A stretch of 64,000 nt of DNA from Cheilinus undulatus (Eukaryota; Chordata; Actinopteri; Labriformes; Labridae), in assembly GCF_018320785.1 (NCBI RefSeq), contig NC_054881.1:42074424-42138423 (forward strand), written 5' to 3'. Shown piece by piece: positions 12,023 to 56,600 of the stretch (positions are counted from its first letter, which is position 1; the number at the start of each line of letters is the position of its first letter). The position numbers and the translations under genes were made by a program. The notes beneath the pieces are model-generated. The model saw nothing but the letters and a program-made list of their open reading frames with translations, had not been told where the DNA came from and ran no database searches.

Positions 12023-15000
12023 ATGGCAGCCCGGGCGCTGGCGAAAGGTAAACTCATATCAAAGGTTTAATTCTGTGGCAGACCTACGCTACAGTCAGGA
12101 ATCAGTGTTCTGTCTGATCAAATAACAGTCTAGCTGTTTCATTTTCTGTGTCGCTGAAACAAAAATGGCGATGTAGCTCACAGTTAGCATGATAGCCAGA
12201 GCTAGTAAAGTAACGCGCTCACTCTGAGTTGAAGTCGCTGTTTGAATCGGAGTTTGTGTTTTTTAGGTCTTTGTGGGCTGCGACCCCTCAGGGGGGTTCC
12301 AGTCGGGTTCTCCTGTGGGGGACATCAGTACGCCACCGCAGCCTCCATAAAACCTCCTCAGCCCCAGGTAGACGACGGGACAGGTGAGCTAGAGACCAGG
12401 GAGCTACAGGATCAGTCCGCGGTGTTTTCTGCTCTTTGTCAACAATGTTCTTTATTTCACTCAGAGAAAATGTTCAGCCAGACCCTGGAGAAGCCGGACT
12501 ACTTCCGTGTGTCAGAGCTGATCTCCCTGAAGGAGCTGTTTGATGCCAGAGTCCACCTGGGCCACAAGAAAGGCTGCAGACACAGGTTTGTGTTTAATCT
12601 ACAGACACAGGTTTGTGTTTAATCTACAGACACAGGTTTGTGTTTAATCTACAGACACAGGTTTGTGTTTAATCTACAGACACAGGTTTGTGTTTAATCT
12701 GCAGACACAGGTTTGTGTTTAATCTACAGACACAGGTTTGTGTTTAATCTACAGACACAGGTTTGTGTTTAATCTGCAGCTGTATGCAGACACAGGTTTG
12801 TGTTTAATCTACAGACACAGGTTTGTGTTTAATCTGCAGACACAGGTTTGTGTTTAATCTGCAGACACAGGTTTGTGTTTAATCTACAGACACAGGTTTG
12901 TGTTTAATCTACAGACACAGGTTTGTGTTTAATCTACAGACACAGGTTTGTGTTTAATCTGCAGACACAGGTTTGTGTTTAATCTACAGACACAGGTTTG
13001 TGTTTAATCTACAGACACAGGTTTGTGTTTAATCTGCAGCTGTATGCAGACACAGGTTTGTGTTTAATCTACAGACACAGGTTTGTGTTTAATCTGCAGA
13101 CACAGGTTTGTGTTTAATCTGCAGACACAGGTTTGTGTTTAATATGCAGACACAGGTTTGTGTTTAATCTACAGACACAGGTTTGTGTTTAATCTACAGA
13201 CACAGGTTTGTGTTTAATCTGCAGACACAGGTTTGTGTTTAATATGCAGACACAGGTTTGTGTTTAATCTACAGACACAGGTTTGTGTTTAATCTACAGA
13301 CACAGGTTTGTGTTTAATCTGCAGACACAGGTTTGTGTTTAATCTACAGACACAGGTTTGTGTTTAATCTACAGACACAGGTTTGTGTTTAATCTACAGA
13401 CACAGGTTTGTGTTTAATCTACAGACACAGGTTTGTGTTTAATCTGCAGACACAGGTTTGTGTTTAATCTACAGACACAGGTTTGTGTTTAATCTACAGA
13501 CACAGGTTTGTGTTTAATCTGCAGCTGTATGCAGACACAGGTTTGTGTTTAATCTACAGACACAGGTTTGTGTTTATCTCTACAGCTGTATGCAGACACA
13601 GGTTTGTGTTTAATCTACAGACACAGGTTTGTGTTTAATCTACAGACACAGGTTTGTGTTTAATCTACAGACACAGGTTTGTGTTTAATCTACAGACACA
13701 GGTTTGTGTTTAATCTGCAGACACAGGTTTGTGTTTAATCTACAGACACAGGTTTGTGTTTAATCTGCAGACACAGGTTTGTGTTTAATCTACAGACACA
13801 GGTTTGTGTTTAATCTACAGACACAGGTTTGTGTTTAATCTACAGACACAGGTTTGTGTTTAATCTACAGACACAGGTTTGTGTTTATCTCTACAGCTGT
13901 ATGCAGACACAGGTTTGTGTTTAATCTACAGACACAGGTTTGTGTTTAATCTACAGACACAGGTTTGTGTTTAATCTACAGACACAGGTTTGTGTTTAAT
14001 CTACAGACACAGGTTTGTGTTTAATCTACAGACACAGGTTTGTGTTTAATCTACAGACACAGGTTTGTGTTTAATCTACAGACACAGGTTTGTGTTTAAT
14101 CTGCAGACACAGGTTTGTGTTTAATCTACAGACACAGGTTTGTGTTTATCTCTACAGCTGTATGCAGACACAGGTTTGTGTTTAATCTACAGACACAGGT
14201 TTGTGTTTAATCTACAGACACAGGTTTGTGTTTAATCTGCAGACACAGGTTTGTGTTTAATCTGCAGACACAGGTTTGTGTTTAATCTACAGACACAGGT
14301 TTGTGTTTAATCTACAGACACAGGTTTGTGTTTAATCTGCAGACACAGGTTTGTGTTTAATCTACAGACACAGGTTTGTGTTTAATCTACAGACACAGGT
14401 TTGTGTTTAATCTGCAGACACAGGTTTGTGTTTAATCTACAGACACAGGTTTGTGTTTAATCTGCAGACACAGGTTTGTGTTTAATCTACAGACACAGGT
14501 TTGTGTTTAATCTACAGACACAGGTTTGTGTTTAATCTACAGACACAGGTTTGTGTTTAATCTGCAGACACAGGTTTGTGTTTAATCTACAGACACAGGT
14601 TTGTGTTTAATCTGCAGCTGTATGCAGACACAGGTTTGTGTTTAATCTACAGACACAGGTTTGTGTTTATCTCTACAGCTGTATGCAGACACAGGTTTGT
14701 GTTTAATCTACAGACACAGGTTTGTGTTTAATCTACAGACACAGGTTTGTGTTTAATCTACAGACACAGGTTTGTGTTTAATCTACAGACACAGGTTTGT
14801 GTTTAATCTGCAGACACAGGTTTGTGTTTAATCTACAGACACAGGTTTGTGTTTAATCTACAGACACAGGTTTGTGTTTAATCTGCAGCTGTATGCAGAC
14901 ACAGGTTTGTGTTTAATCTACAGACACAGGTTTGTGTTTATCTCTACAGCTGTATGCAGACACAGGTTTGTGTTTAATCTACAGACACAGGTTTGTGTTT

Positions 15001-17644
15001 AATCTACAGACACAGGTTTGTGTTTAATCTACAGACACAGGTTTGTGTTTAATCTACAGACACAGGTTTGTGTTTAATCTACAGACACAGGTTTGTGTTT
15101 AATCTACAGACACAGGTTTGTGTTTAATCTACAGACACAGGTTTGTGTTTAATCTACAGACACAGGTTTGTGTTTATCTCTACAGCTGTATGCAGACACA
15201 GGTTTGTGTTTAATCTACAGACACAGGTTTGTGTTTAATCTGCAGACACAGGTTTGTGTTTAATCTACAGACACAGGTTTGTGTTTAATCTGCAGACACA
15301 GGTTTGTGTTTAATCTACAGACACAGGTTTGTGTTTAATCTACAGACACAGGTTTGTGTTTAATCTACAGACACAGGTTTGTGTTTAATCTGCAGACACA
15401 GGTTTGTGTTTAATCTACAGACACAGGTTTGTGTTTAATCTGCAGACACAGGTTTGTGTTTAATCTGCAGCTGTATGCAGACACAGGTTTGTGTTTATTC
15501 TGCAGCTGGTAATCTGCTGAGAATTTTCAGATGTGCACTCATCAGTGACATGGATGTGGGATTGGTTAGGTCAGTCTGGTTAGAGAATGCAGTGTCCACG
15601 TCTTTAATATCAAACATACACAGCAGTATCCGTGACCATTACTTAAGCTGGCTGAAAATGCTAAGAACTTAAAGGATTCTGGAGATGTAAACAGGTTTTA
15701 GCATGAAAAATCGTCTTTAGGGTGTTAATTTTATGTGTCTGTTGTTATCACAAAGCAAGACTTTTTGTTGAGTGCCTTCATGTCATATTATTTAGGTCTT
15801 TGTGTTTTATTGTATCATCTATATTGTCTTGTATTCTTACGTAAATTTTTAATGTACTTTTTTCTTGTATATTCCATCATCCTGCCGGGGACTACAGATG
15901 GAAATTCAACATTTTGGCAAATTCGCCCATTGCCATAATTCCTATAGTCTTAGTAAAAGGTTCGTTACCTTTAGTTGTCCGTGCAAGCTATTTTTAGATC
16001 GGCGCTGCCGAGTTCGGAGCTGCTGTGCCAACTCAATGGAAGCAGACGGTATTTTTGCTTTCCCTCGTCAAACGCATCAAAAACACAATCCAACAACTCC
16101 AAAACACTCTCGTGGACAAGTTGTGACCTGCACATTCACCACGCTCACCACTATAGGAAGTATGGCAATGGGCCGATTTGGGTGAGTCACGAGTTTAAAC
16201 ACACCATGAAGCAGTTATTTAAGCTGAATCACTACAACGCTACCAAGAGTGTTGTCAGTTGTCACAAGTGTGGTGGTTAATGGCTAGAGTGAAATATGAC
16301 CTTCATGGTAACAGTCCTGATCATAGAGAGAAATATAGAGATTACTATGAGCATCACTTCACCAGCTATGTTCTCTAAGATGGAAGGCCACTAGGGGTGC
16401 ACCAATCGATCGGCCAAAATCGATATTGGCGCCGATTTCCTTAATTTTAGGAGATCGGCGATCGGCTGATCCTTGTAATAATAATAATAATAATAATAAT
16501 AATATCTTGAATTTATATAGCGCCTTTAAAGAAACCCAAGGATGCTTTACAGGAACACATATACATGGACAAACTATGTGAGGGGTAGGATGAGTGTAAG
16601 GGGTGGTCTAGTGAAGACTGTAGGCTGTGGTGAACAGGTGGTGCTTGAGACGTTTTTTTGAAAATGTCCAGAGATGGAGCGCTACGAATGTCTGCAGGAA
16701 GAGTGTTCCTAGAGTGTAAATAAGACCGGGGGATAAGATCGGTTTCATATGCCTCTACCTACTAAAACGTGAAAAATGAAAGACTAAAGGAACTGATATA
16801 ATTTGTTAGTTTGGACAGCAATGCTTTAAACTTTTCATTTATATTTGAGAGAACTACCTCATGTGCAGTTAAAACAACAAGTTTGTATTGTTTCCCGGGT
16901 ATTGTTCAATGTTATTTAATAAAATAAGATTGGACCGTTGAAGGTGGATGCTGTCAGTTATAAAAAAAATCGATATCGGCCAAAATCGGAATTGGCAGGT
17001 CAGGCTTTTTAAAGATCGGTGATCTGCCAGAAAATTGCAATCGGCGCACCCCTAAAGGCCACGTTTTTTCTTTCCCTTTAAATTCTCCTTCTCTTAGGCT
17101 TATGGAGCCTTACCTGTATGGCTGTCGTTTGGACCAGGACATCATAGATCTGGACCAGACCATGCAGCACCTCCAGCAGGCTCTGAACTTCACAGCCCAC
17201 ATAGCGTTTCGTGGTGGCGTGATCCTGTTTGTCAGCCGTAGGCGTCAGTTTGTCCACCTGGTGGAGAGTACAGCTAAGGACTGCGGAGAGTACGCACACA
17301 CTCGGTACTGGCAGGGCGGCCTCCTCACCAACGCCCCCATCCAGTACGGCCCAGGAGTCCGCTTACCGGACCTCGTGATCTTCCTCTCCACTCTCAACAA
17401 CGTGTTCCAGCAGCACGTGGGAATCCGGGACGCTGCTAAGATGAACATCCCGACAGTGGGTGTGGTGGACTCGAACTGCAACCCCAGCCTGGTGACGTAC
17501 CCGGTGCCCGGGAACGACGACACCCCAGCCGCCATGGAGCTGTACTGTCGCTTATTCAAGATGACCATCAACCGCGCCAAAGACAAGCGGAGGCAGATGC
17601 AGATACTGCAAGGCCTGTCAGCACCCTCCACAGCAAACTCATGA
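12023..17644 (+). CDS. mrps2: mrps2, mitochondrial small ribosomal subunit protein uS2m, complete
   Basis: Exons are 12023-12047, 12267-12383, 12465-12585 and 17098-17644. They total 810 nt, or 269 aa, against about 296 in human. The start [18 protein letters not shown] is Arg-rich and acid-poor, as expected of a mitochondrial presequence. Mature uS2 signatures are [17 protein letters not shown], the exon 3/4 join [69 protein letters not shown] and YPVPGNDD. The product is part of the mitoribosomal small subunit in the matrix. The exon 3 donor CACAG|GTTTGT is weak, and the same motif is tandemly repeated for 2.9 kb immediately downstream. Intron 3 also holds a hAT element. Phases agree and no stop interrupts. 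Confidence 0.95.
12575..15510. repeat. 25-bp minisatellite made of the mrps2 exon 3 splice junction
   Basis: The unit is cacaggtttgtgtttaatctacaga (25 bp), with TCTACAG/TCTGCAG alternation. A longer variant inserts ctgtatgcag about every 10-20 units. Over 2.9 kb this gives roughly 110-115 copies, estimated from length. The first copy overlaps the last coding bases of exon 3 (TGCAGACACAG) and its donor. Every unit therefore carries CACAG|GTTTGT, and most also carry an acceptor-like TTTAATCTACAG. Confidence 0.97.
15511..16391. other. mrps2 intron 3, unique portion
   Basis: Between the minisatellite and the hAT element I see no transposon ends, tandem repeats or convincing exon. The open frames here are short and in no recognisable family. 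Confidence 0.5.
16392..17054. mobile_element. hAT-type non-autonomous element with perfect target duplication
   Basis: The termini taggggtgcaccaatcgatc and ...gcaatcggcgcacccctа-type inverse are flanked by a perfect 8-bp duplication aaggccac (16384-16391, 17055-17062). The interior contains GATCGG-rich subterminal words, a TAA microsatellite (16477-16502) and a segment containing ttatatagcgcctttaaag, which is a widespread repeat. No transposase is present. It lies in mrps2 intron 3, ending 35 bp before the exon 4 acceptor tract. Confidence 0.9.
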
Positions 17645-23532: not shown

Positions 23533-24964
23533 ATGAGGCTCTCAGCTCTGCCTCATGAACTCCAAAAACTAAAGCATCCACAGCCAGTGGCTGCAGGTAA
23601 GTAGAATATTTTATTAGTTATAACCTATGATTGAGATTTAGTCTCTTCTGTCTTGTATTGCTTTTCTTCTTGCAGGTGGATCCACAACATGATGATGAAT
23701 GGCTTTGCCCTCTTAAGGAGCTCTTGTCCCATATTGAAACTTCAGTGTTAAAGATAACTGGTAATGGTAAAAAATGGTATTTTTTTCTCTATTAAGGATT
23801 AAAATCTGCCCCTTGAGACTCAACTCTGGCTGCAGTGTCTCTGTTGTGCAATATGTGGGCAGACAGTAATCAATTGGCTCACGATGGCTCAATTTCCACT
23901 GCTTGGTGGACTTTGGGTATGGAACCGGGCCAGATATTTAGTTTATCACAAGTATTACAGATAGTTTAATTGTTTTTAATACATTGTCGTTACTGAATCC
24001 ATCCATACGGGGGTTTCTAGCTCACTGTCTGGATAGTCAAAGCGGCTGCTTAACTAGCTCAGAGCTTTCTATGCCAAGTTAAACTGTAGATCCTGCAAAT
24101 CATTCAGCCCTAGCATTGATATTATTTTTTACTTATCAATCAACGTCTAAATAGCAGCAGCAGCCTTTATAAATAAGGCAACCTATTAAACTTTGAAGTA
24201 AAAGCTCTTTTTCAGTTCTAACAACTGATTTTGTCATCTGCAGTGTTCATGTTGAGTTTTATTTACATTTTGAAGCTTAAAATAATTTAAATTCCAGCTG
24301 AAAGCCCATACAACCCTCCTGTCAGAGCAAGCCCTTCATACTTTCAGGCATCAGCAGGCTAACAGATGTAGTGAACAACTGTCTGGCATGTTTAAACTTG
24401 TAATAAATGCTATTTTAACACTAGACACCCAGGATGCACCTCTGCTGGAGCAGATAAACCTGTGGAGCAGCAGCACGGTTGTTGGGTAAGATTCCCGCTA
24501 GTATGGAGAAGAGTAGCTGGCGTTTTTGTCTTTGCCTTCATGCCCCTTGAGGCGTTGCAGTCCAACTTTGTGTTGAGCCTGTGTCATGAGGTGGCAGAGA
24601 ATAAACGCTGTAGGCGACCATCATCACGTTTAAATCCTGCACCAGTTGGGATTTAGACTGATGTAGTTTACAAACAGATGCTTTTCATAGAAATCAAGTA
24701 AATTAAAGTTTATTTTAACCTTTGTTAAACATCTTAAACATTAGTACAGGATCTGAGCGGCTTTGTCCTCATGCTTTGGTTTTGCTTTTTATTTTTAGGA
24801 CAAGATGTTTGAAGATTTCTGAAGATAGAAGACGAGCTGAAAAGGATTTATTTCTCAACAACTTTCTGTTTTTTTTGTTTTGTTTTGTTTTTTTTATTTT
24901 AGATGTTTTAGAGTCATCTTTTAGTATATTCATTTTTTCTAAATGTTTCAAATTTTTTCACTAA
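23533..24964 (+). CDS. Unrecognised small spliced gene (tentative)
   Basis: Four exon-like blocks have good splice sites: 23533-23596 (tttacag|...GCAG|gtaagt), 23676-23760 (cttgcag|...CTG|gtaatg), 24425-24485 (aacactag|...TTGG|gtaaga) and 24799-24964 (tttttag|). The last three join in one open frame: VDPQHDDEWLCPLKELLSH..., then TQDAPLLEQINLWSSSTVVG, then TRCLKISEDRRRAEKDLFLN and a Phe-rich tail to TAA. The first block fits this frame only through an in-frame TAA. Its own ATG frame (MRLSALPHELQKLKHPQPVA) stops early in block 2 but would join block 3 if block 2 were skipped. AATAAA follows at 25051. I do not recognise the family. It could be a small fish-specific protein, a decaying gene or a long non-coding RNA. 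A possible upstream exon ends at 20461 (AAAACG|gtgagt). Confidence 0.35.
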
Positions 24965-27372: not shown

Positions 27373-30300
27373 TTATTTTGATGCGGGGTGTTTGGACCGG
27401 GCTGCAGGGCCGATGTTTTCTCTCCGTAAACGTGGGGGGTAAAACTGGCTGCGGTAGTAGAGCGTTTCCTGCTGGCTCAGACCGAGGCGGCTCAGTAACA
27501 CCACCATATCTCGATGGAACGCTTTAGTGAGGAGAGCGTAAAAAAACGGGTGTGCACACGAGTTCAGAGGGTAGAAGAGGACCAGAAGAACCTGTAAAGA
27601 GATACACAGGTTGGGGCACTGTGTAAAATGTAAAAAACAGAAGTCAGAGACTGTCAAATTCTCATAAACCCACAATCGAGCATAAACAACATAACAGATT
27701 CAGGTTTTTTAAGTTTTATAAAGTGACCCAACTTTTTTGAAATTGTGATTGTAAATGCTTTATACATTGAAGCTAATATTGTATACAAAAAGAAGAAAAA
27801 TAATCTCACCTTCGAGTCGGTGACGGTCATCAGTGGTTGGTGCAGAGCTGCAGACAGACCATAGAAGCAGATGGGAACCAGACACAGGAAGTTGGTGAAG
27901 ACGAGGATGGCCATGCGTTTGGCCATGCTGGTGTCACACCTGCTGGACAGGTGCTGAGGGTTGTGCACCATGAAGTAGATGTGAAGGTAACAAAGACACA
28001 CCACCATGAAAGCAAGGACGTTAGCCATGAGGACGGAGACCACGTAGGCGCGAGCAGCCGGTGTCTCCGTGTCCATGGGTAAACAGATGCTCACTCTTTG
28101 GTAACTGCTAACGCCCACGACAGGAAGCAGAGCGAGGGTGGCACACAGAAACCAGCCGACCATTATCAGCACCGCCGCATGGCGGAGACGGATCCTCCTC
28201 TCTGGCCTCATGGCGTAGAGGATGGCGTGCCAGCGCTGAAGGCTGATTAATGTTAATGTGTACACTGATAACTCACTGGCAAACACGGATAATGTCCCTG
28301 CTAGCTTACAGCCACTTCCTGTTTGCCAGGCAATGGCGTACTGGTAATACTGGGAGCGGGTGTACAGGTCTACGGATGCAATGAGCAGCAGGTAAAGCCC
28401 CATGCAAAAATCTGCAAACGCCAGGTGGCCCATGAGGAAACGAGTGACGGACATCTTCTGTCGGCTGGTGAGCAGGATGAACATCACCAGCAGGTTAGCA
28501 AAGATGGCCGACAGACTGACAACCCAGACCAGCAACCTCAGAAAACTCTGACTCATCACGTCCTCACAGGGGTTCATGGCGTCAGGAAGAGGGGTGCAGG
28601 ATGGTCGGTCGGCGTGACGGCGGTTACAAAGAGCGAGGTCGAAAACGTCGCTGAGATGGTCGGCCGGTAACTCCACGTAAAACAAACTGTCGTTCTGATC
28701 CGCTTCAGACGGACGAAAACCACCGCTGGGATTAAAGCTGCTGGAAGCCAGGACTCCAACGGCGCCCGCCAAAGGGTCATGACCTTCCTGTTTGTCATAC
28801 CTCTGAGAGACACCCAACGGTGAGAAGTCTGGGATATTCCCAAAATCTTTCCCAATGAGGTTGCAGATCTGAGCCTCATGGTCTCTGTAACGTAGAAGAC
28901 AACAATTTTTATTTTTATAATGATCATAATTATTATCATTCTTACTATTATTATTATTATTATTATCATTATTATCGTTGTTATTATTATTTCAATTATT
29001 ATAATTATTATTATAATTGTCATGATTATTATTATAATTATAATAATTGTTATTATAATTATTATTATTAATATCATTTTTATTATTACCATTATTTTTT
29101 AAATTATTGTAGAAATATTATTATTTTGTTATTATCATTATAACTATTATTTAAATTATTATTGGTTTTTATAATAATAATAATAATCCTCCTCCTCATC
29201 ATTATTATTATTATTATTATTATTATCATTTTTATCATTATTACTACTATTCTTACTATTATTATTATTACAAAAATCTTTCAAATTATTATTTAAATAA
29301 TGTTATTATTATGTTATTATTATTTTATAATGGTTTTTATTATTGTTATTGTTGTTATTATTATCATTATATTATCATTATTATTATTATTTTGTTATAT
29401 TGTTATTTCATATTATTATTATTATTATTATTATTGTTTTTTAAATTATTTTATTATTTTTGTTATTATTGTTTTTCTTATTATTATTATTATTTTATCA
29501 TTATTAAAAACAATATTTTTATTACTATTATTATTGTTATTATTATTATTATTTTACCATGTTTTTTTATTATTATTTTATTATTATTATTGTTGTTGTT
29601 GTTGTTTATTCAGAGCAAAACCAACAAATACATACTGGATGTTACAGAACTTCAGATGTCACTGAGGTTGAAGGAGACGTACCCTCTCCATCTCTGGAGC
29701 ATTGTGAGGCCGCAGCAGTGGCTTGGGAACGTTAATTCAGCGCTCTGTAAGTGGGCGAAGGCGGTGAGGGGGGGCAGAGCTCTCAAGTTCCAAGTGTTTT
29801 TAACCCGAAGCTTTTCAACATTGGCCATTCCTGCAGAGGGTAGAGAGCGCACGGCGGTGTCTGAGAGGTCGCTGAAAACAGATGAAGAGTTAACGTTCAT
29901 TCATTTAAACTCATTCATGGACTCAGAGCAGGAGCTCTTCCTGTTCTAACAGTAGAGAGTACAGCAAACATCCCTCCACTCTTTGTTCCCTGGATTTCAC
30001 TCACAGGAGCGTCGGGCCATCAATGACGCCATCAAAAGCCAAATCATCGATCTGTATCAGATCCACGTTCCTGTGAAGATACCTTTAAAAACAGAACTTC
30101 ATGAGACGTGGAATCACACATTAACAGGACTATTTCATAAATTATACATTTAGTAGTCAGAGGTATAACAATAAAAATGGTAGAATATTTTTTCTGTGAC
30201 TTTATTGAATGAAAACGTCGTACACTTCTTCCAGGCTGCTCCCATTGAAGGCCAAACGCTCCACCTCTCTCACTCCGTTGCTGTTTAACATTCTTGAAAA

Positions 30301-33115: not shown

Positions 33116-36100
33116 AAATACATTCATCACTACACCAGTAACAGCTACAGACACCTACAGACCTCTGATTCACTGTAAACATTTATCACTACACCAGTAA
33201 CAGCTACAGACGTCTACAGACATCTGATTCACTGTAAACATTCATCACTACACCAGCAACAGCTACAGACGCCTACAGACCTCTGATTCACTATAAACAT
33301 TCATTATTATACCAGTAACAGCTACAGACATCTACAGACATCTGATTCACTATAAACATTCATTATTATACCAGTAACAGCTACAGACACCTACAGACCT
33401 CTGATTCACTATAAACATTCATTATTATACCAGTAACAGCTACAGACACCTACAGACCTCTGATTCACTATAAACATTCATTATTATACCAGTAACAGCT
33501 ACAGACACCTACAGACCTCTGATTCACTGTAAACATTCATTATTATACCAGTAACAGCTACAGACGTCTACAGACCTCTGATTCACTGTAAACATTCATT
33601 ATTATACCAGTAACAGCTACAGACGTCTACAGACCTCTGATTCACTGTAAACATTCATTATTATACCAGTAACAGCTACAGACACCTACAGACCTCTGAT
33701 TCACTGTAAACATTCATTATTATACCAGTAACAGCTACAGACGTCTACAGACCTCTGATTCACTATAAACATTCATTATTATACCAGTAACAGCTACAGA
33801 CGTCTACAGACCTCTGATTCACTGTAAACATTTATCACTACACCAGTAACAGCTACAGACGTCTACAGACATCTGATTCACTGTAAACATTCATCACTAC
33901 ACCAGCAACAGCTACAGACGCCTACAGACCTCTGATTCACTATAAACATTCATTATTATACCAGTAACAGCTACAGACACCTACAGACATCTGATTCACT
34001 GTAAACATTCATTATTACTACACACCAACAGCTACAGACCCCTACAGACATCTGATTCACTATAAACATTCATTATTATACCAGTAACAGCTACAGACAC
34101 CTACAGACATCTGATTCACTATAAACATTCATTATTATACCAGTAACAGCTACAGACATCTACAGACATCTGATTCACTATAAACATTCATTATTATACC
34201 AGTAACAGCTACAGACACCTACAGACATCTGATTCACTGTAAACATTCATCACTACACCAGCAACAGCTACAGACGCCTACAGACCTCTGATTCACTATA
34301 AACATTCATTATTATACCAGTAACAGCTACAGACACCTACAGACATCTGATTCACTATAAGCATTCATTATTATACCAGTAACAGCTACAGACATCTACA
34401 GACATCTGATTCACTATAAACATTCATTATTATACCAGTAACAGCTACAGACACCTACAGACATCTGATTCACTATAAGCATTCATTATTATACCAGTAA
34501 CAGCTACAGACATCTACAGACATCTGATTCACTATAAACATTCATTATTATACCAGTAACAGCTACAGACACCTACAGACCTCTGATTCACTATAAACAT
34601 TCATTATTATACCAGTAACAGCTACAGACACCTACAGACCTCTGATTCACTGTAAACATTCATCACTACACCAGTAACAGCTACAGACACCTACAGACCT
34701 CTGATTCACTGTGAACATTCATTATTATACCAGTAACAGCTACAGACGTCTACAGACCTCTGATTCACTGTAAACATTCATCACTACACCAGTAACAGCT
34801 ACAGACGTCTACAGACCTCTGATTCACTGTAAACATTCATCACTACACCAGTAACAGCTACAGACACCTACAGACATCTGATTCACTGTAAACATTCATC
34901 ACTACACCAGTAACAGCTACAGACGCCTACAGACCTCTGATTCACTGTAAACATTCATTATTATACCAGTAACAGCTACAGACGTCTACAGACCTCTGAT
35001 TCACTGTAAACATTCATCACTACACCAGTAACAGCTACAGACACCTACAGACCTCTGATTCACTGTAAACATTCATCACTACACCAGTAACAGCTACAGA
35101 CACCTACAGACATCTGATTCACTGTAAACATTCATCACTACACCAGCAACAGCTACAGACGCCTACAGACCTCTGATTCACTATAAACATTCATTATTAT
35201 ACCAGTAACAGCTACAGACATCTACAGACATCTGATTCACTATAAACATTCATTATTATACCAGTAACAGCTACAGACACCTACAGACATCTGATTCACT
35301 ATAAACATTCATTATTATACCAGTAACAGCTACAGACATCTACAGACATCTGATTCACTATAAACATTCATTATTATACCAGTAACAGCTACAGACACCT
35401 ACAGACCTCTGATTCACTATAAACATTCATTGTTATACCAGTAACAGCTACAGACACCTACAGACCTCTGATTCACTATAAACATTCATTATTATACCAG
35501 TAACAGCTACAGACACCTACAGACCTCTGATTCACTATAAACATTCATTATTATACCAGTAACAGCTACAGACACCTACAGACCTCTGATTCACTATAAA
35601 CATTCATTATTATACCAGTAACAGCTACAGACACCTACAGACCTCTGATTCACTATAAACATTCATTATTATACCAGTAACAGCTACAGACACCTACAGA
35701 CCTCTGATTCACTATAAACATTCATTATTATACCAGTAACAGCTACAGACACCTACAGACCTCTGATTCACTATAAACATTCATTATTATACCAGTAACA
35801 GCTACAGACACCTACAGACCTCTGATTCACTATAAACATTCATTATTATACCAGTAACAGCTACAGACACCTACAGACCTCTGATTCACTATAAACATTC
35901 ATTATTATACCAGTAACAGCTACAGACACCTACAGACCTCTGATTCACTGTAAACATTCATTATTATACCAGTAACAGCTACAGACACCTACAGACCTCT
36001 GATTCACTCTAAACATTCATCACTACACCAGTAACAGCTACAGACGCCTACAGACCTCTGATTCACTGTAAACATTCATTATTATACCAGTAACAGCTAC

Positions 36101-37215
36101 AGACACCTACAGACCTCTGATTCACTGTAAACATTCATTATTATACCAGCAACAGCTACAGACATCTACAGACCTCTGATTCACTGTAAACATTCATCAC
36201 TACACCAGTAACAGCTACAGACACCTACAGACCTCTGATTCACTGTAAACATTCATTATTATACCAGCAACAGCTACAGACATCTACAGACCTCTGATTC
36301 ACTGTAAACATTCATTATTATACCAGTAACAGCTACAGACACCTACAGACCTCTGATTCACTGTAAACATTCATCACTACACCAGCAACAGCTACAGACG
36401 CCTACAGACCTCTGATTCACTATAAACATTCATTATTATACCAGTAACAGCTACAGACACCTACAGACATCTGATTCACTGTAAACATTCATCACTACAC
36501 CAGCAACAGCTACAGACGCCTACAGACCTCTGATTCACTATAAACATTCATTATTATACCAGTAACAGCTACAGACATCTACAGACATCTGATTCACTAT
36601 AAACATTCATTATTATACCAGTAACAGCTACAGACACCTACAGACATCTGATTCACTATAAACATTCATTATTATACCAGTAACAGCTACAGACATCTAC
36701 AGACATCTGATTCACTATAAACATTCATTATTATACCAGTAACAGCTACAGACACCTACAGACGTCTGATTCACTATAAACATTCATTATTATACCAGTA
36801 ACAGCTACAGACACCTACAGACCTCTGATTCACTGTAAACATTCATTATTATACCAGTAACAGCTACAGACACCTACAGACCTCTGATTCACTGTAAACA
36901 TTCATTATTATACCAGTAACAGCTACAGACACCTACAGACCTCTGATTCACTGTAAACATTCATGACCTCTGATTCACTGTAAACATTCATTATTATACC
37001 AGTAACAGCTACAGACACCTACAGACCTCTGATTCACTGTAAACATTCATTATTATACCAGTAACAGCTACAGACACCTACAGACCTCTGATTCACTGTA
37101 AACATTCATTATTATACCAGTAACAGCTACAGACACCTACAGACCTCTGATTCACTGTAAACATTCATCACTACACCAGTAACAGCTACAGACGCCTACA
37201 GACCTCTGATTCACT
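33116..37215. repeat. 59-bp minisatellite, about 69 copies, upstream of fshr
   Basis: The unit contains ccagtaacagctacagacac, ctacagacctctgattcact and gtaaacattcattattata. Variants alternate ATTATTATACCAG with CACTACACCAG, GT with AT before AAACATTC, and acctctg with acatctg. One unit is truncated at about 36960. The copy number is length divided by period. The array occupies the entire proximal upstream region of the receptor. Confidence 0.97.
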
Positions 37216-45904: not shown

Positions 45905-48900
45905 CCCATACAGCATCTACAGACTGACATCTATAGGCTGATGTCTACAGACAGACGTCTATGGGCTGATGTCTACAAACTGACGTCTATGGGCTGATGT
46001 CTACAGACTGACATCTATGGGCTGATGTCTACAAACTGACGTCTATGGGCTGATGTCTACAGACTGACATCTATGGGCTGATGTCTACAGACTGACGTCT
46101 ACAGACTGACATCTATGGACTGATGTCTACAGACTGACGTCTATGGACTGACATCTATGGACTGACGTCTACAAACTTACGGTTAATGGGTGACGTCTAC
46201 AGACTGATGTCTACAGACTGACGTCTATGGACTAATGTCTACAGACTGACATCTATGGACTGACGTCTACAAACTGACGGTTAATGGGTGACGTCTACAG
46301 ACTGATGTCTACAGACTGACGTCTATGGGCTGACGTCTACAGACTGATGTCTACAGACTGACGTCTATGGGCTGACGTCTACAGACTGATGTCTACAGAC
46401 TGACGTCTATGGGCTGACGTCTACAAACTGACGGTTAATGGGTTACGTCTACAGACTGATGTCTACAGACTGACGTCTATGGGCTGATGTCTACAGACTG
46501 ACGTCTGTGGGCTGATGTTTACAATCTGACGTCTATGGACTGATGTTTACAATCTGACATCTATGGACTGATGTCTTCAGACTGACGTCTACAATCTGAC
46601 GTCTATGGACTGATGTTTACAATCTGACATCTATGGACTGATGTCTTCAGACTGACGTCTACAATCTGACGTCTATGGACTGATGTTTACAATCTGACAT
46701 CTATGGGCTGATGTCTGCAGATTGACGTCTATGAACTGATTGTCTACAAACTGACGTCTATGGGCTGATGTCTACAGACTGACGTCTGTGGGCTGATGTC
46801 TACAATCTGACGTCTATGGGCTGATGTCTTCAGACTGACGTCTGTGGGCTGACGACTTCAGACTGACGTCTATGGGCTGCTGTCTACAGACTGACGTCTA
46901 CAACCTGACGTCTATGTGCTGATATCTACAGACTGACATCTATGGGCTGACGTCTACTAACTGACGTCTATGGACTGATGTCTACAATCTGACGTCTATG
47001 GGCTGATGTTTACAGACTGACATCTATGGACTGATGTCTACAGACTGACGTCTACAAACTGACATCTATGGGCTGATGTCTAAAAAATGTCCGTGGGTTG
47101 ATGTCTACAGACTGACGTCTGTGGGCTAAAGTCTAAAAACTGACGTCTACAGACTGATGTCTATGGGCTGATGTCTACAGACTGACGTCTATAGGCTGAT
47201 GTCTACAGACTGTCTGATATCTATGGGCTGATGTCTACAGACTGTCTGATATCTATGGGCTGATGTCTACAGACTGTCTGATATCTATGGGCTGATGTCT
47301 ACAGACTGTCTGATATCTATGGGCTGATGTCTACAGACTGTCTGATATCTATGGGCTGATGTCTACAGACTGTCTGATATCTAAGGGCTGATGTCTACAG
47401 ACTGACGTCTATGGGCTGACGTCTACAGACTGATGTCTACAGACTGACGTCTATGGGCTGACGTCTACAAACTGACGGTTAATGGGTTACGTCTACAGAC
47501 TGATGTCTACAGACTGACGTCTATGGGCTGATGTCTACAGACTGACGTCTGTGGGCTGATGTTTACAATCTGACGTCTATGGACTGATGTTTACAATCTG
47601 ACATCTATGGACTGATGTCTTCAGACTGACGTCTACAATCTGACGTCTATGGACTGATGTTTACAATCTGACATCTATGGACTGATGTCTTCAGACTGAC
47701 GTCTACAATCTGACGTCTATGGACTGATGTTTACAATCTGACATCTATGGGCTGATGTCTGCAGATTGACGTCTATGAACTGATTGTCTACAAACTGACG
47801 TCTATGGGCTGATGTCTACAGACTGACGTCTGTGGGCTGATGTCTACAATCTGACGTCTATGGGCTGATGTCTTCAGACTGACGTCTGTGGGCTGACGAC
47901 TTCAGACTGACGTCTATGGGCTGCTGTCTACAGACTGACGTCTACAACCTGACGTCTATGTGCTGATATCTACAGACTGACATCTATGGGCTGACGTCTA
48001 CTAACTGACGTCTATGGACTGATGTCTACAATCTGACGTCTATGGGCTGATGTTTACAGACTGACATCTATGGACTGATGTCTACAGACTGACGTCTACA
48101 AACTGACATCTATGGGCTGATGTCTACAAATGTCCGTGGGTTGATGTCTACAGACTGACGTCTGTGGGCTAAAGTCTAAAAACTGACGTCTACAGACTGA
48201 TGTCTATGGGCTGATGTCTACAGACTGACGTCTATAGACTGATGTCTACAGACTGTCTGATATCTATGGGCTGATGTCTACAGACTGTCTGATATCTATG
48301 GGCTGATGTCTACAGACTGTCTGATATCTAAGGGCTGATGTCTACAGACTGACGTCTATGGGCTGATGTCTACAGACTGACGTCTTTGGGCTGATGTCTA
48401 CAGACTGACGTCTATGGGCTGCTGTCTACAGACTGACGTCTACAACCTGACGTCTATGTGCTGATATCTACAGACTGACATCTATGGGCTGACGTCTACT
48501 AACTGACGTCTATGGACTGATGTCTACAATCTGACGTCTATGGGCTGATGTTTACAGACTGACATCTATGGACTGATGTCTACAGACTGACGTCTACAAA
48601 CTGACATCTATGGGCTGATGTCTACAAATGTCCGTGGGTTGATGTCTACAGACTGACGTCTGTGGGCTAAAGTCTAAAAACTGACGTCTACAGACTGATG
48701 TCTATGGGCTGATGTCTACAGACTGACGTCTATAGGCTGATGTCTACAGACTGTCTGATATCTATGGGCTGATGTCTACAGACTGTCTGATATCTATGGG
48801 CTGATGTCTACAGACTGTCTGATATCTATGGGCTGATGTCTACAGACTGTCTGATATCTAAGGGCTGATGTCTACAGACTGACGTCTATGGGCTGACGTC

Positions 48901-49955
48901 TACAGACTGATGTCTACAGACTGACGTCTATGGGCTGACGTCTACAAACTGACGGTTAATGGGTTACGTCTACAGACTGATGTCTACAGACTGACGTCTA
49001 TGGGCTGATGTCTACAGACTGACGTCTGTGGGCTGATGTTTACAATCTGACGTCTATGGACTGATGTTTACAATCTGACATCTATGGACTGATGTCTTCA
49101 GACTGACGTCTACAATCTGACGTCTATGGACTGATGTTTACAATCTGACATCTATGGACTGATGTCTTCAGACTGACGTCTACAATCTGACGTCTATGGA
49201 CTGATGTTTACAATCTGACATCTATGGGCTGATGTCTGCAGATTGACGTCTATGAACTGATTGTCTACAAACTGACGTCTATGGGCTGATGTCTACAGAC
49301 TGACGTCTGTGGGCTGATGTCTACAATCTGACGTCTATGGGCTGATGTCTTCAGACTGACGTCTGTGGGCTGACGACTTCAGACTGACGTCTATGGGCTG
49401 CTGTCTACAGACTGACGTCTACAACCTGACGTCTATGTGCTGATATCTACAGACTGACATCTATGGGCTGACGTCTACTAACTGACGTCTATGGACTGAT
49501 GTCTACAATCTGACGTCTATGGGCTGATGTTTACAGACTGACATCTATGGACTGATGTCTACAGACTGACGTCTACAAACTGACATCTATGGGCTGATGT
49601 CTACAAATGTCCGTGGGTTGATGTCTACAGACTGACGTCTGTGGGCTAAAGTCTAAAAACTGACGTCTACAGACTGATGTCTATGGGCTGATGTCTACAG
49701 ACTGACGTCTATAGACTGATGTCTACAGACTGTCTGATATCTATGGGCTGATGTCTACAGACTGTCTGATATCTATGGGCTGATGTCTACAGACTGTCTG
49801 ATATCTAAGGGCTGATGTCTACAGACTGACGTCTATGGGCTGATGTCTACAGACTGACGTCTATGGGCTGATGTCTACAGACTCACGTCTTTGGGCTGAT
49901 GTCTACAGACTGACGTCTATGGGCTGATGTCTACAGACTGACGTCTATGGGTTCC
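45905..49955. repeat. Minisatellite of TGACGTCTAYRGRCTGA-type units with higher-order structure
   Basis: The basic period is about 28 bp (gactgacgtctatgggctga + tgtctaca), with many variants. Marker variants recur at long spacing: ggttaatgggttacgtctac at about 46434, 47478 and 48955, and tgaactgattgtctacaaac at about 46730, 47775 and 49252. The intervals are therefore about 1044 and 1477 bp. A third marker (atgtccgtgggttgatgtct) recurs at 47086, 48128, 48629 and 49606. Long segments have been duplicated as blocks. The array lies 3' of nrg1. Confidence 0.97.
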
Positions 49956-50680: not shown

Positions 50681-53600
50681 TCACAGATGACCCGACTCGC
50701 CGTGCGGGTTGCTGAGCGGTGCTGTTGGGTTAGTCCTGCCGCCGTCCGAAGCAGGTGGACTTCTTGTAGTGATGAAGGGCATTTCGTCCTCCTGAACGTC
50801 GTCTGTTAGCACGCTGTTACAACTGGACTTCACCTCCTCTTGCTGCGTGTTGGACCCCTGTAAATCATCCGAAGGGAACACCTGGCTGCCAGCTGTTCCA
50901 TGCTCACCTTTGTCCACAGGTAACAGCGGGCTGGGCGGTAAACTGTGAGCCATGTGGCCGTGGTTGTAGTGGGCTGACGTCCTCTTCTGGTCATCTCGTG
51001 CCCGACGTTTGTTCAACAGCAGCAGGGGGCGCTCCTCCTCTCCAGAGGGGCTTAAAGCCACAGAAGGGACAGAGACGGCAAGGCTGGAAAGAGGGGCGGA
51101 CATCTCAGATGGAGGAGAACCTGGAGTTGGTAGAGATGTCCTAGACCCCGAGGAACACCTGGTCGGAGACGTCAGGACGGACACGAACCTAGGATAAAAA
51201 CACAACAACCAAAATGATTGGACATCGATAAAGATGAAAAATCAGAGACACCCTAGTGAATTAGAGACACACGCATGCAGAGCAGAACTAGGACCAAAAA
51301 TGAGCCCCACACACTCCATAACAAAGCCCTAACTTCCAGAGAGACTGCTGAGAGTGTCCCCCTCAGGTTCTGTTCACCTGCAGAGTCCTCAGACACAAAC
51401 CCAGCCAGCTGAAACCAGATTATTCAACAAGAAGGCAGGAATCGACCAAAAACAAAGCTACCTGGAGTGCTAGTTGTCCCTGAAAGGAAATATGCTGCAA
51501 GGAATTGAAGCACTGAGACTGATCCACAGCTCAGTCAACACAACCTCGCCATCAAGACAGGGCGCCGTTGACAAAGGCGGGTCCAACAGAGGAACGACCG
51601 TGCACCCACTGCAGCCAACAGGAGGTGGAAACAGAGCTCTTCTTTCTAACCACCCGTTCTTTATATGGGGAAATCAGAGAATGTTCTTTCCTCTCTTCAC
51701 CAGAAAAACAAAAATAATTCACCAGGATGAACAAACAGAAGCTTCCAGATCTGCTGGTTGAAGATCAACAACGTGCAAATGTTGCAGCACATTAGTGAGC
51801 AGCTGTGACCAAAGAGGATCCTCAATGTCTACATCACCACCATCAAATGGACTTTGGATTTTTTCTTTTTAAATTACATTTCTTAATTATGAAATGTAAA
51901 ATGATTTGGCAATGTAACCCTTTAGTTTTCATGCCAATAAATAGATTCAGGGTCTGGCTGATGGTTTGATCAGGGTCTGGCTGATGGTTTGATCAGGGTC
52001 TGGCTGATGGTTTGATTAGAGTCTGGCTGGTGGTTTGATCAGGGTCTGGCTAGTGGTTTGATCAGGGTCTGGCTGATGGTTTGATCAGGGTCTGGCTGGT
52101 GGTTTGATCAGGGTCTGGCTGGTGGTTTGATCAGGGTCTGGCTGTATCTGGTGGTTTGATCAGGGTCTGGCTGTATCTGGTGCTTTGATCAGGGTCTGGC
52201 TGGTGCTTTGATCAGGTCCTGGCTGGTGGTTTGATCAGGGTCTGGCTGGTGGTTTGATCAGGGTCTGGCTGGTGGTTTGATCAGGGTCTGGCTGGTGGTT
52301 TGATCAGGGTCTGGCTGGTGGTTTGATCAGGGTCTGGCTGATGGTTTGATCAGGGTCTGGCTGGCGGTTTGATCAGGGTCTGGCTGGTGGTTTGATCAGG
52401 GTCTGGCTGTATCTGGTGCTTTGATCAGGGTCTGGCTGGTGCTTTGATCAGGTCCTGGCTGGTGGTTTGATCAGGGTCTGGCTGTATCTGGTACTTTGAT
52501 CAGGGTCTGACTGTATCTGGTGCTTTGGTCAGGGTCTGGCTGTATTTGGTGGTCTGGTCAGGGTCTTGCTGTATCTGGTGGTTTGATCAGGGTCTGACTG
52601 TTGGTTTGATCAGGGTCTGGCTGGTCTTTAGATCAGGGTCTGTCTGATGGTCTGATCAGGGTCGGACTGTATCTGGTGGTTTGATCAGGGTCTGACTGTA
52701 TCTGGTGCTTTGATCAGGGTCTGTCTGATGGTTTGATCAGGGTCTGTCTGATGGTTTGATCAGGGTCTGACTGGTGGCTTGATCAGGGTCTGTCTGGTGG
52801 TTAGATCAGGGTCTGTCTGGTGGTTAGATCAGGGTCTGACTGGTCTTTAGATCAGGGTCTGTCTGATGGTCTGATCAGGGTCTGACTGTATCTGGTGGTT
52901 TGATCAGGGTCTGACTGCATCTGGTGCTTTGATCAGGGTCTGACTGTATCTGGTGGTTTGATCAGGGTCTGACTGTATCTGGTGCTTTGATCAGGGTCTG
53001 ACTGTATCTGGTGCTTTGATCAGGGTCTGGCTGGTCTGTAGATCAGGGTCTGTCTGATGGATTGATCAGGGTCTGACTGTATCTGGTGCTTTGATCAGGG
53101 TCTGTCTGATGGTTTGATCAGGGTCTGACTGTATCTGGTGCTTTGATCAGGGTCTGTCTGGTGGTTAGATCAGGGTCTGGCTGGTCTGTAGATCAGGGTC
53201 TGTCTGATGGTTTGATCAGGGTCTGACTGTATCTGGTGCTTTGATCAGGGTCTGTCTGGTGGTTAGATCAGGGTCTGGCTGGTCTGTAGATCAGGGTCTG
53301 TCTGATGGTTTGATCAGGGTCTGACTGTATCTGGTGCATTGATCAGGGTCTGTCTGATGGTTTGATCAGGGTCTGACTGTATCTGGTGCTTTGATCAGGG
53401 TCTGTCTGATGGTTTGATCAGGGTCTGACTGTATCTGGTGCTTTGATCAGGGTCTGGCTGCATCTGGGTGTCATATAAACATTTCAAAGTTAAACTGGTC
53501 AGTTACCTCGGTCTTTAAGCCATGTCGGAGCTGTCTGTGTCACGGCCCTTCTTTGAATGAGCTCTTAAATCTCTGGTGCCAGCGGTGGCATTCAGACGAC

Positions 53601-56600
53601 CCCTGCCGCGCTGCGGGGCACGCTGGCTATTCTCAGTCAGTGACGTCACGGAGACGGACTCGTTGTCCGACAGACTGTCGGACCAGTCATTATTCCAGCT
53701 GCAGAGACAGGGAGGGGCGTTACCACGGAGACAGACGAGAATATAGCGGTGTTTTATTACACCTGAATCAGAGCCAGCATGGCGTCAGCGTTGTGTTCAG
53801 CGATTGGGCAGTTTATCATTTAATCAGCTGATTCAATCAACAGCCACAAGCTTCCTGTTTATAAATGAGGTCTCACAAGGGAGGACGGTGCTGACCTTTT
53901 AAATATTCATGATGAAATGTAGTCTTTAGGATCAGGTTCATCTGTTCCAGTCTTAATTTGTTATTAATAATCAATCTTTGATAATTGAACAAAACACTTG
54001 AAGGTGGTCTGCCCCCCTCTGAGGGGTTTTAATTCAGACCTCTTGGAATATTTTTGGAGTTTTCTGAAATGATGTAGATAAATAAAATAATCTGAGCCAC
54101 AAATATTGAATACATATTTAGTATACATTCATTAGGCATTTTTAAAGCATAGTCTGTTTTTTGGCCACCAGGGGGCTCTCAATTAAAACAGTCACAAAAG
54201 ACTGCTGTTTGAACTGTTTGAGTTTGTCTGGCTGAGTCATGATCGCAACTGTTAAAACAGCGTTACTAGAGGAAACCACAAGAGGGTGCCAGAGAGGGCA
54301 TTTTCTAAAAATAAATAAATAAATAAAAGCAAAAAAACAAAACACAAAAAAGCAGACAAAGACATCTTGCAACTGGCCTCTGATCTAAAGCCGGGCGTAC
54401 ACTGCACTCTCTCAAGCCTGTTCTCATCTGATGATTTCTGAGTCCTGGAGCTGGTTTGTGGTCTGTAGTTTGAGGGGACACAACAGCGGACCTCGACTAA
54501 ATTACATTGATAATAATAAGCCCAGACAAAGTTGTAATCCTGCGCTGCTCCTATGAGCACATAAATCTCAAATTTTGTATCATGTGTCATAAACGTTTCA
54601 ATCTCACAGTGAACCCTGAGATTAGACCACCAGAGTAGGATGCCTCAGGCCGAGCAGAGGCAGGGATGAGAGAGACCATGTGTCAAATGCTGAGGTGTTC
54701 AGGAGCCTGAGGATGGGAAAGGTTAGATGCTGGATACGGGAGCAGAAGCTGCACTTCTAGGGGCACCTTGCATGCTTTCCCAGGCCTTAAAACATACTGG
54801 CTGCCCAGGACCCAGTAGGTTGGGCTGGACACTGGGGATGGCAAAATGCGTCATGGACGGGCGGGTTCCTGGAGAGATGAGGCATGGTCTTGGATTGGGA
54901 CTGGACAACGTCCATCAGGACACCAGATACCGCAGCTGGAGTTAGCTGTGTGGCTTTTACATCTGATATCAAGAGTGCTTTGTGTGTTCAAATGATGTAT
55001 GACACTGAGAAGCTGATGTTTCCTCACACAGCTGAATGAAAGAAGAAAGCCCTCTAGTTATATCTCTCTTCTAAAGGGGTTGTTGGCAAACATACAGGAG
55101 CTTTATTTGGACTGAGGTGTTCTGAGTGGTCCTTAAATGTTCACAGGTATGTCTGAGTGAAAACACCAAACTGACCAAAGAATGAACGACTCAAACTAAT
55201 GTCAGATCAACAGGTCATCGACTCACAATAAAAATTATTAAAAAGTCCTGGGTAACACCTGCAAACGTAATAAACTACAAACGTGTAAACTACAAACATT
55301 CAAACTACAAACATTCAAAACTACAAATGGAATAAACTACAAATGTTCAAAACTACAAATTTGATAAACTACAGACCTAATAAACTACAAACATAATTAA
55401 GTACAAATGTTTAAAACTACAAACGTAATAAACTACTAACATAATAAACAACAAACAAAAGAAACTACAATTATAATAGACTGCAAACATAAACTACAAA
55501 TGTTCAAAAGTACAAACAGAAACCATAATTATAATAAACTACAAATATAATAAACTACATACGTTCAAAACTACAAACATAATATACTACAAATGTAATA
55601 AACCACAGACGTAATAAACTACAAACGTTCAAACTACAAATGTTCAAAGTTACAAACCTAATAAACTACAAACATTCAAAACTACAAATGTAATAAAATG
55701 CAAACGTAATAAACTACAATCGTTCAAAATTACGTCACTACCGGTTTTGCTCACCTCTGGCTTGAGACGTTGGTGAATGTGGTGTGATCATGAGCAGAGA
55801 AGGCATTTTTACTGGTGAAGGTTGTTTCTGTGTCGTTCTCAGCAGCGTGCCGTGTGACTGTCCCGTTACATTGCTTTTGGAAAAAGAGAGAGAGGTTGAG
55901 ACTGAGATTGTTTGATTTCAAAGTGAAGATGACAAAGATGAAGATGATGAGTTCACTGACAGGCTGAAGCTCCTGCAGAGGCATATTTCCGATGTTAGCC
56001 TCGTGTCGTCCTCTGACCGAGTTCTGCTGTTTGGCTCCGCTGTTAATCTGTTTCTTTTTCTTCTTCTTCGTCCTCAGACTTTGCCTCAGACGATCCTGAA
56101 GTTTCTTCCTCTGCTTCCTGTTTTGGAACAAAAGGAAAAACATGAATGACCTCAGAGAAAAAAAACGAAAAGCAAACGGAGTTATGAAAGTGTTTATTAA
56201 CAAATGATGACAGGAAACTGGGTGTCCTTCTTCGCTGAGGATTTAGGACCATGTTTTTCATACATTTTCTAAAGTTTTCTTTTTTTTAATGTATGAATCT
56301 AAAAATACATTAGACTCATAATCCCACCCATGTCTGCATTATTATTGAGTTTAATATCAAACATCTGATTTTAAAAAAGCATTCGGCTTTGAAAGACTAA
56401 TCTAACTAGACAAGCATGTTTACTGTGTTTCACTCATTTTTCTGTCCATACTTTTTTAAAAAGGGAATTATTAAGTTGTAGCCTTCAGTGTTGAAAATCG
56501 AGCTGAATTAGAAAAAAGCTGCCGATCCTCTCATGTCCACAAGAGGGTGTCTGCATCTATCCCCATGTTGAAATGTGGATGGATGCAGACACAATGATGC

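Follow-up and report, generated by a model that had tools for sequence, protein, structure and literature searches.

A minisatellite at the exon 3/intron 3 junction of mrps2 in Cheilinus undulatus carries 112 copies of the splice donor and probably arose from that junction

The third exon of mrps2 in Cheilinus undulatus continues directly into a minisatellite (...GGCTGCAGACACAG/GTTTGT; here and below the slash marks a splice boundary) that extends up to position 15508 of the window, i.e., the whole 64,000-nucleotide stretch of contig NC_054881.1 analysed here. This raises two questions, namely how such an array was born at a coding boundary, and which of its many equal donors the gene would use. 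The explanation that we consider best as a whole, with a probability of about 70%, is that the array was born by slippage between two CTGCAG hexamers and that its first donor would be the main one, the array being removed with intron 3.

The window contains a complete mrps2 coding sequence on the plus strand, whose four exons, established from the joined translation, give 810 bases with a single, terminal stop and encode 269 residues:

12023..12047, plus strand: exon 1, coding part, with the donor AAAG/GTAAAC
12267..12383, plus strand: exon 2
12465..12585, plus strand: exon 3, 121 nt, its last 12 bases (CTGCAGACACAG) lying within the repeat
12586..12591, plus strand: native intron 3 donor GTTTGT, donor 1 of 112
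17098..17644, plus strand: exon 4 with the stop codon, acceptor TTCTCCTTCTCTTAG/G

The open frame containing the last exon matches the Pfam family Ribosomal_S2, and residues 37-267 of the joined protein align with chains of mitochondrial uS2m/MRPS2 from solved structures (best E = 8.7e-110). Since residues on both sides of the exon 3/4 junction take part in this match, 12585 is the correct end of exon 3. Intron 3 thus covers 12586-17097 (4512 nt), its acceptor lying about 1.6 kb beyond the array. A PPP1R26-like frame was observed upstream of mrps2; PPP1R26 and MRPS2 are neighbours in vertebrates. Intron 3 also holds, outside the array, an element that we take to be hAT-like, whose first and last 12 bases are inverted with 11 of 12 matching and whose target duplication is exact:

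16392..17054, no strand assigned: hAT-like (our label) non-autonomous element in intron 3, with the 8-bp target duplication AAGGCCAC, ending 44 bp before exon 4

The array itself was delimited as follows:

12577..15508, plus strand: minisatellite with 112 donors CACAG/GTTTGT, units of 25, 35 and 36 bp and an incomplete last unit
15487..15508, plus strand: last, incomplete unit GTTTGTGTTTATTCTGCAGCTG, followed by unique intron sequence

The original prediction, made from the letters alone, had placed about 110 copies of the exon 3/intron 3 junction at 12575..15510; our counts bear this out with 112 exact donors and refine the end to about 15508. The motif CACAGGTTTGT occurs in 112 exact copies, all of them on the plus strand and inside the array, with no further copy on either strand of the 64-kb window, against a chance level of 0.09 per window on average (100 dinucleotide shuffles). 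The first donor G is at 12586 and the last at 15487, and the spacing between donors is 25 bp in 99 cases, 35 bp in six and 36 bp in six. Independently, TRF reported 12577-15470 with a period of 25 and 111.1 copies. The 111 complete units fall into five types: 74 read GTTTGTGTTTAATCTACAGACACAG, 23 carry TCTGCAG and two carry AATATGCAG, these three classes being 25 bp long, while six units are of 35 bp (numbers 8, 18, 37, 79, 89 and 111) and six of 36 bp (numbers 39, 51, 61, 81, 91 and 100). Around the donor start, a stretch of at least 9 bases on the exon side and 11 on the intron side is the same in every copy, the differences between units being confined to the AATCTRCAG part and to a 10-bp insert, CTGTATGCAG; in the first copy, CAGACACAG is coding sequence. 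The same prediction had stated that most units carry an acceptor-like sequence, a fair description given that TTTAATCTACAG is found 74 times, in 74 of the 111 complete units (TTTAATCTGCAG is found 29 times). The order of the unit types was also searched for higher-order repeats, which were not established, because the longest recurring run (14) was reached by 93 of 1000 shuffles.

Regarding the origin of the array, we reconstructed the single-copy junction by joining both array flanks, GGCTGCAGACACAG to GTTTGTGTTTATTCTGCAGCTGG, and examined 65 bases of it. In these 65 bases, CTGCAG is the only direct repeat of at least 6 bp; one copy lies on the exon side of the donor and the other on the intron side, at a distance of 25 bp, which is the period of the array. 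In the present-day sequence, these hexamers are located at the two ends of the minisatellite:

12574..12579, plus strand: CTGCAG, exon-side copy of the 6-bp direct repeat and probable seed of the array
15500..15505, plus strand: CTGCAG, intron-side copy of the seeding direct repeat

According to PMC3389668, two models for the birth of minisatellites (Haber and Louis, 1998; Taylor and Breden, 2000) are marked by slippage involving direct repeats of 5-10 bp and by a terminal unit that is left incomplete; birth by slippage or unequal exchange is also presented in PMC6162428. The mrps2 array resembles such cases in that the reconstructed empty site has a 6-bp direct repeat, within the 5-10 bp class, at the spacing of the unit, and in that the array closes with an incomplete unit of 22 bases with one mismatch, followed by unique sequence. 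This last unit is shorter by more than 10%, the counting limit used in PMC3389668 itself. Relative to the slippage-born minisatellites of that source, the difference is that at mrps2 the segment between the direct repeats contained a splice donor.

Slippage (or unequal exchange) between the hexamer at the end of exon 3 and the one in intron 3, 25 bp apart, would therefore have duplicated a 25-bp segment carrying the exon end together with the donor, because the donor sat between them, and later amplification would have led to the 112 copies, all of which except the first lie within the intron. The direction of the copying can be approached from the exon bases that the first copy shares with the others: 12 in the case of the 23 copies preceded by a TCTGCAG unit, 11 (TGCAGACACAG) for each of the 12 copies standing after a 35- or 36-bp unit, 11 for two others and nine for the remaining 74. 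This exon part encodes GCRHR, and GCRHR and MEPY are conserved in all four MRPS2 alignments listed of 78 matches, two of the four being near-identical chains; this makes the exon the likely source, with the array derived from it. Over 22 bases the last copy agrees with the 35-bp unit at all positions but one, after which it diverges. The 35-bp unit may be parsed into 11 exon bases, 22 intron bases (with the one mismatch) and two filler bases (11 + 22 + 2 = 35). A simple slip between the two CTGCAG copies nevertheless leaves the second breakpoint and the 2-base filler of the 35- and 36-bp units unexplained. We infer a single-copy ancestor from the joined flanks and consider it very probable that the array originated from CTGCAG slippage at the mrps2 junction. 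The earlier suggestion that the array grew from the gene's own splice junction is thus supported, as the repeated unit reproduces the native boundary between exon 3 and intron 3, and the CTGCAG pair stands at 25 bp. The array looks like the outcome of ordinary slippage between short repeats that bracket a donor by chance.

The duplication of a segment containing AG/GT is also the basis of the model of Rogers (1989) as given in PMC4974935, in which a tandemly duplicated AGGT segment gives rise to a new intron; in the fission-yeast cases of that source, a 24-bp segment has been duplicated several times. In contrast to that model, an existing intron has been lengthened from its own donor at mrps2, where we found no Rogers-type new intron in formerly exonic sequence, intron 3 ending at an ordinary acceptor outside the array.

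Five minisatellites longer than 1 kb, each with a different unit, make up 24% of the window:

12577-15508: unit of 25 bp (the mrps2 array)
33120-37215: unit of 59 bp
45916-49951: unit of 28 bp
51947-53460: unit of 23 bp
59832-62560: unit of 33 bp

By eye, no splice junction was seen in the units of the other arrays at both ends of the 23-bp and 33-bp arrays and at the low end of the 59-bp array. On the minus strand, the start of the 59-bp array precedes a likely start codon by about 110 bp. The frame beside it has no Pfam match and resembles, presumably, the first exon of a gene of the glycoprotein-hormone-receptor type; a seven-transmembrane exon (Pfam 7tm_1) is present at 27657-28991. A neuregulin intracellular region (Pfam) lies at 50684-51241 on the minus strand, with a second possible neuregulin exon, recognised by eye only, at about 53530-53700 on the same strand; the 23-bp array is located about 55 bp past the likely stop codon of this second frame. 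The only Rfam hit of the window at the gathering threshold is SNORA17 at 24539-24621 (38.4 bits against a gathering score of 29).

Turning to the use of the donors, we computed the coding outcome of each in silico, joining it directly to exon 4. Donor 1 is the sole donor of the 112 that gives the full normal protein. Donor 2 adds 25 nt and shifts the frame, with a stop 141 nt into exon 4, and all 110 donors from the third to the last read a TAA within the array:

12620..12622, plus strand: TAA in the exon 3 frame, met if donor 3 or a later one is joined to exon 4

According to the usual rule of nonsense-mediated decay, a stop more than 55 nt ahead of a junction makes the transcript a decay target. 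The stop lies at more than 55 nt from the new junction for 108 of the 112 donors, the fifth onward, and not for donors 2-4; transcripts from donors 5-112 are therefore predicted decay targets, and those from donors 2-4 are not. The original prediction had anticipated that any other donor would add codons or stops, and indeed 111 of the 112 spoil the protein when joined to exon 4. Its further statement that the first donor must be chosen holds as a requirement of the protein (one donor in 112) rather than as an observation, and re-splicing of a wrong choice could also yield the normal mRNA.

Donor 1 is probably the main site used, since it alone is immediately preceded by genuine exon sequence and delimits the normal exon of 121 nt. 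The array would then be removed along with intron 3 and would be near neutral, with some cost in mis-spliced RNA, while errors at donors 5-112 would end in nonsense-mediated decay or be repaired by re-splicing, the extra piece being a GT...AG segment. As a measure of donor strength we used the pairing energy with the 11-nt 5' end of U1. The array donor (-9.9 kcal/mol) is intermediate between those of exon 1 (-6.8) and exon 2 (-11.6), and background GT sites pairing U1 as well as the array donor are rare, with 10 out of 1180 across 21.9 kb taken from elsewhere in the window (0.46 per kb) and one out of 105 in the rest of intron 3. Among competing donors, SRSF1 favours the intron-proximal site and hnRNP A1 the intron-distal one, as stated in PMC5585400. 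By analogy, the SRSF1 preference would point to the wrong end of the mrps2 array, against donor 1.

The first alternative to be weighed is that donor choice is leaky, early donors (2 to about 5) being used as well, so that array length would tune mrps2 output through frameshifted or stop-containing mRNA. The 112 donors share the same 9 bases on the exon side and 11 on the intron side, and the U1 pairing of the array donor is only intermediate, both of which would favour leakage, as would the precedent of human IFI6 (6-16, G1P3). The IFI6 minisatellite has a unit of 12 bp in 26 copies and begins near an exon end. A 12-bp unit keeps later donors in frame, whereas the 25-, 35- and 36-bp units of mrps2 break it; mrps2 also differs in having 112 copies against the 26 of IFI6 and an acceptor-like AG in each unit. 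That minisatellite provides multiple splice donor sites (Turri, Cuin and Porter, 1995), two downstream repeat units serving as donors and giving rise to three mRNA species according to PMC4526556. The mrps2 array resembles it as a minisatellite supplying several splice donors, with one donor in each tandem unit (112) and the start of the array at the donor of exon 3 itself. Minisatellites of this kind are therefore already known, and the novelty of the mrps2 array is reduced accordingly. None of the literature matches listed, judged by title and the start of the abstract, concerned the mrps2 array, and none of the 10 papers listed, of 16, for an mrps2 minisatellite contains 'mrps2'. A strong loss of MRPS2 is, however, expected to be selected against, and leaky choice seems to us possible but rather unlikely from the sequence.

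A second alternative, which we regard as unlikely, is that the array acts as a ladder of dual-specific sites, in which ACACAG/GTTTGT would serve both as acceptor and as donor, intron 3 being removed stepwise or re-spliced and sometimes leaving a 6-nt ACACAG exon (His-Arg). All 111 segments from donor 1 to any other donor start with GT and end with AG, and 109 of them are at least 70 nt long; the surplus piece left by a wrong donor choice being such a segment, the RNA would in principle be re-spliceable to the normal mRNA. An acceptor-like AG precedes the donor by 6 nt in all 112 copies (CAGACACAGGTTTGT); in copy 1 this AG belongs to the exon, and 12 copies have CTGTATG in front of it instead of TTTAATCT. 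For the commonest acceptor-like site (CTACAG), the 14 bases available contain pyrimidines at a fraction of 0.71, which falls between the values for the acceptors of mrps2 itself (0.62, 0.75 and 0.81 for exons 2, 3 and 4); by this measure the site is not clearly inferior to the weakest genuine acceptor. All 111 complete units contain a yTnAy motif resembling a branch point. The claim made for the micro-exon also proved right in silico, a 6-nt ACACAG exon keeping the frame and adding His-Arg per copy when one, two or three copies were tried. On the other side, the tract before the acceptor-like site amounts to just 14 bases, two AGs stand 6 nt apart, and the acceptor of intron 3 itself lies outside the array.

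Such a ladder would have counterparts in human genes: AGGT sites used both as donor and as acceptor, enriched among tandem-repeat introns, have been described in UBC and VCX3A, among others (Duan et al., 2024; PMC10809524). As in these genes, every mrps2 repeat contains the AGGT core (112/112), and a whole number of repeats forms a segment that opens with GT and closes with AG. In UBC and VCX3A, however, the intron itself consists of whole repeats and is bounded on either side by a dual-specific site, whereas the mrps2 intron 3 is 4512 nt long and has its acceptor outside the array; therefore, the mrps2 array may work like those introns without being one of them. By extension, the array could be a self-correcting splice site, any of the 112 donors being usable and the surplus whole-repeat GT...AG piece being removed in a second round to restore the normal junction, a reading that we find doubtful. 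If it were true, a frame-breaking repeat could expand at a coding boundary without cost, and it would leave its mark in mRNAs that encode at least one additional His-Arg pair.

It is very unlikely that the fold of the array RNA hides the surplus donors and protects donor 1. The unit does contain an 18-nt near-palindrome (AGACACAGGUUUGUGUUU) across each donor, and 150 nt of the array (12575-12724) fold with -51.7 kcal/mol, none of 200 dinucleotide shuffles being as stable. However, shorter stretches are less striking (8 of 200 shuffles as stable for 41 nt and 35 of 200 for 60 nt; 4 of 200 for the reverse strand), and shuffled units repeated in tandem in the manner of the array were as stable in 272 of 2000 cases with dinucleotide shuffles and in 257 of 2000 with plain ones, which shows that the fold is not special for a repeat. 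Nor is donor 1 more open than the others: its probability of being unpaired is 1.4e-4 (6e-6 to 2.5e-4 with only 20-160 nt beyond it present), the median for donors 2-112 being 2.0e-4 (range 1.4e-5 to 4.9e-3). The corresponding values are 1.6e-3 in the single-copy control, 0.064 for the exon 1 donor and 0.006 for that of exon 2, donor 1 thus being about 11-fold less open than in the single-copy control. In these folding models the array would, if anything, hinder access to donor 1, and RNA structure as a donor-selecting device was rejected on the grounds of the tiled shuffles and the lack of greater openness at donor 1. Finally, near-identical tandem arrays are frequently mis-sized in assemblies, but the unit types are intermixed rather than copied as one block, and the longest run of them that recurs is the above-mentioned one of 14. 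We consider an artefactual copy number highly improbable, even though the length could still be wrong.

We therefore return to birth by CTGCAG slippage with donor 1 as the main site, and regard the array as real, its origin as well explained and its interest as moderate; it would be of greater interest if repeated splicing were demonstrated, the usage of the donors being a prediction from sequence. To our knowledge, donor choice among equals has mostly been studied with two or a few competing sites. mrps2 is a housekeeping gene with 112 donors that are identical over 20 bases and differ in position alone, and 112 identical start points for one intron make it a clear natural test of how the right donor is chosen. 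The outcome for each donor would be readable from cDNA: a normal product for donor 1, a frameshift for donor 2, stops near the junction for donors 3-4, and predicted decay targets for donors 5-112. Differences in array length among individuals, if they exist, would give a dose series. The mrps2 array also offers a simple illustration of a minisatellite arising, most probably, exactly at a splice junction.
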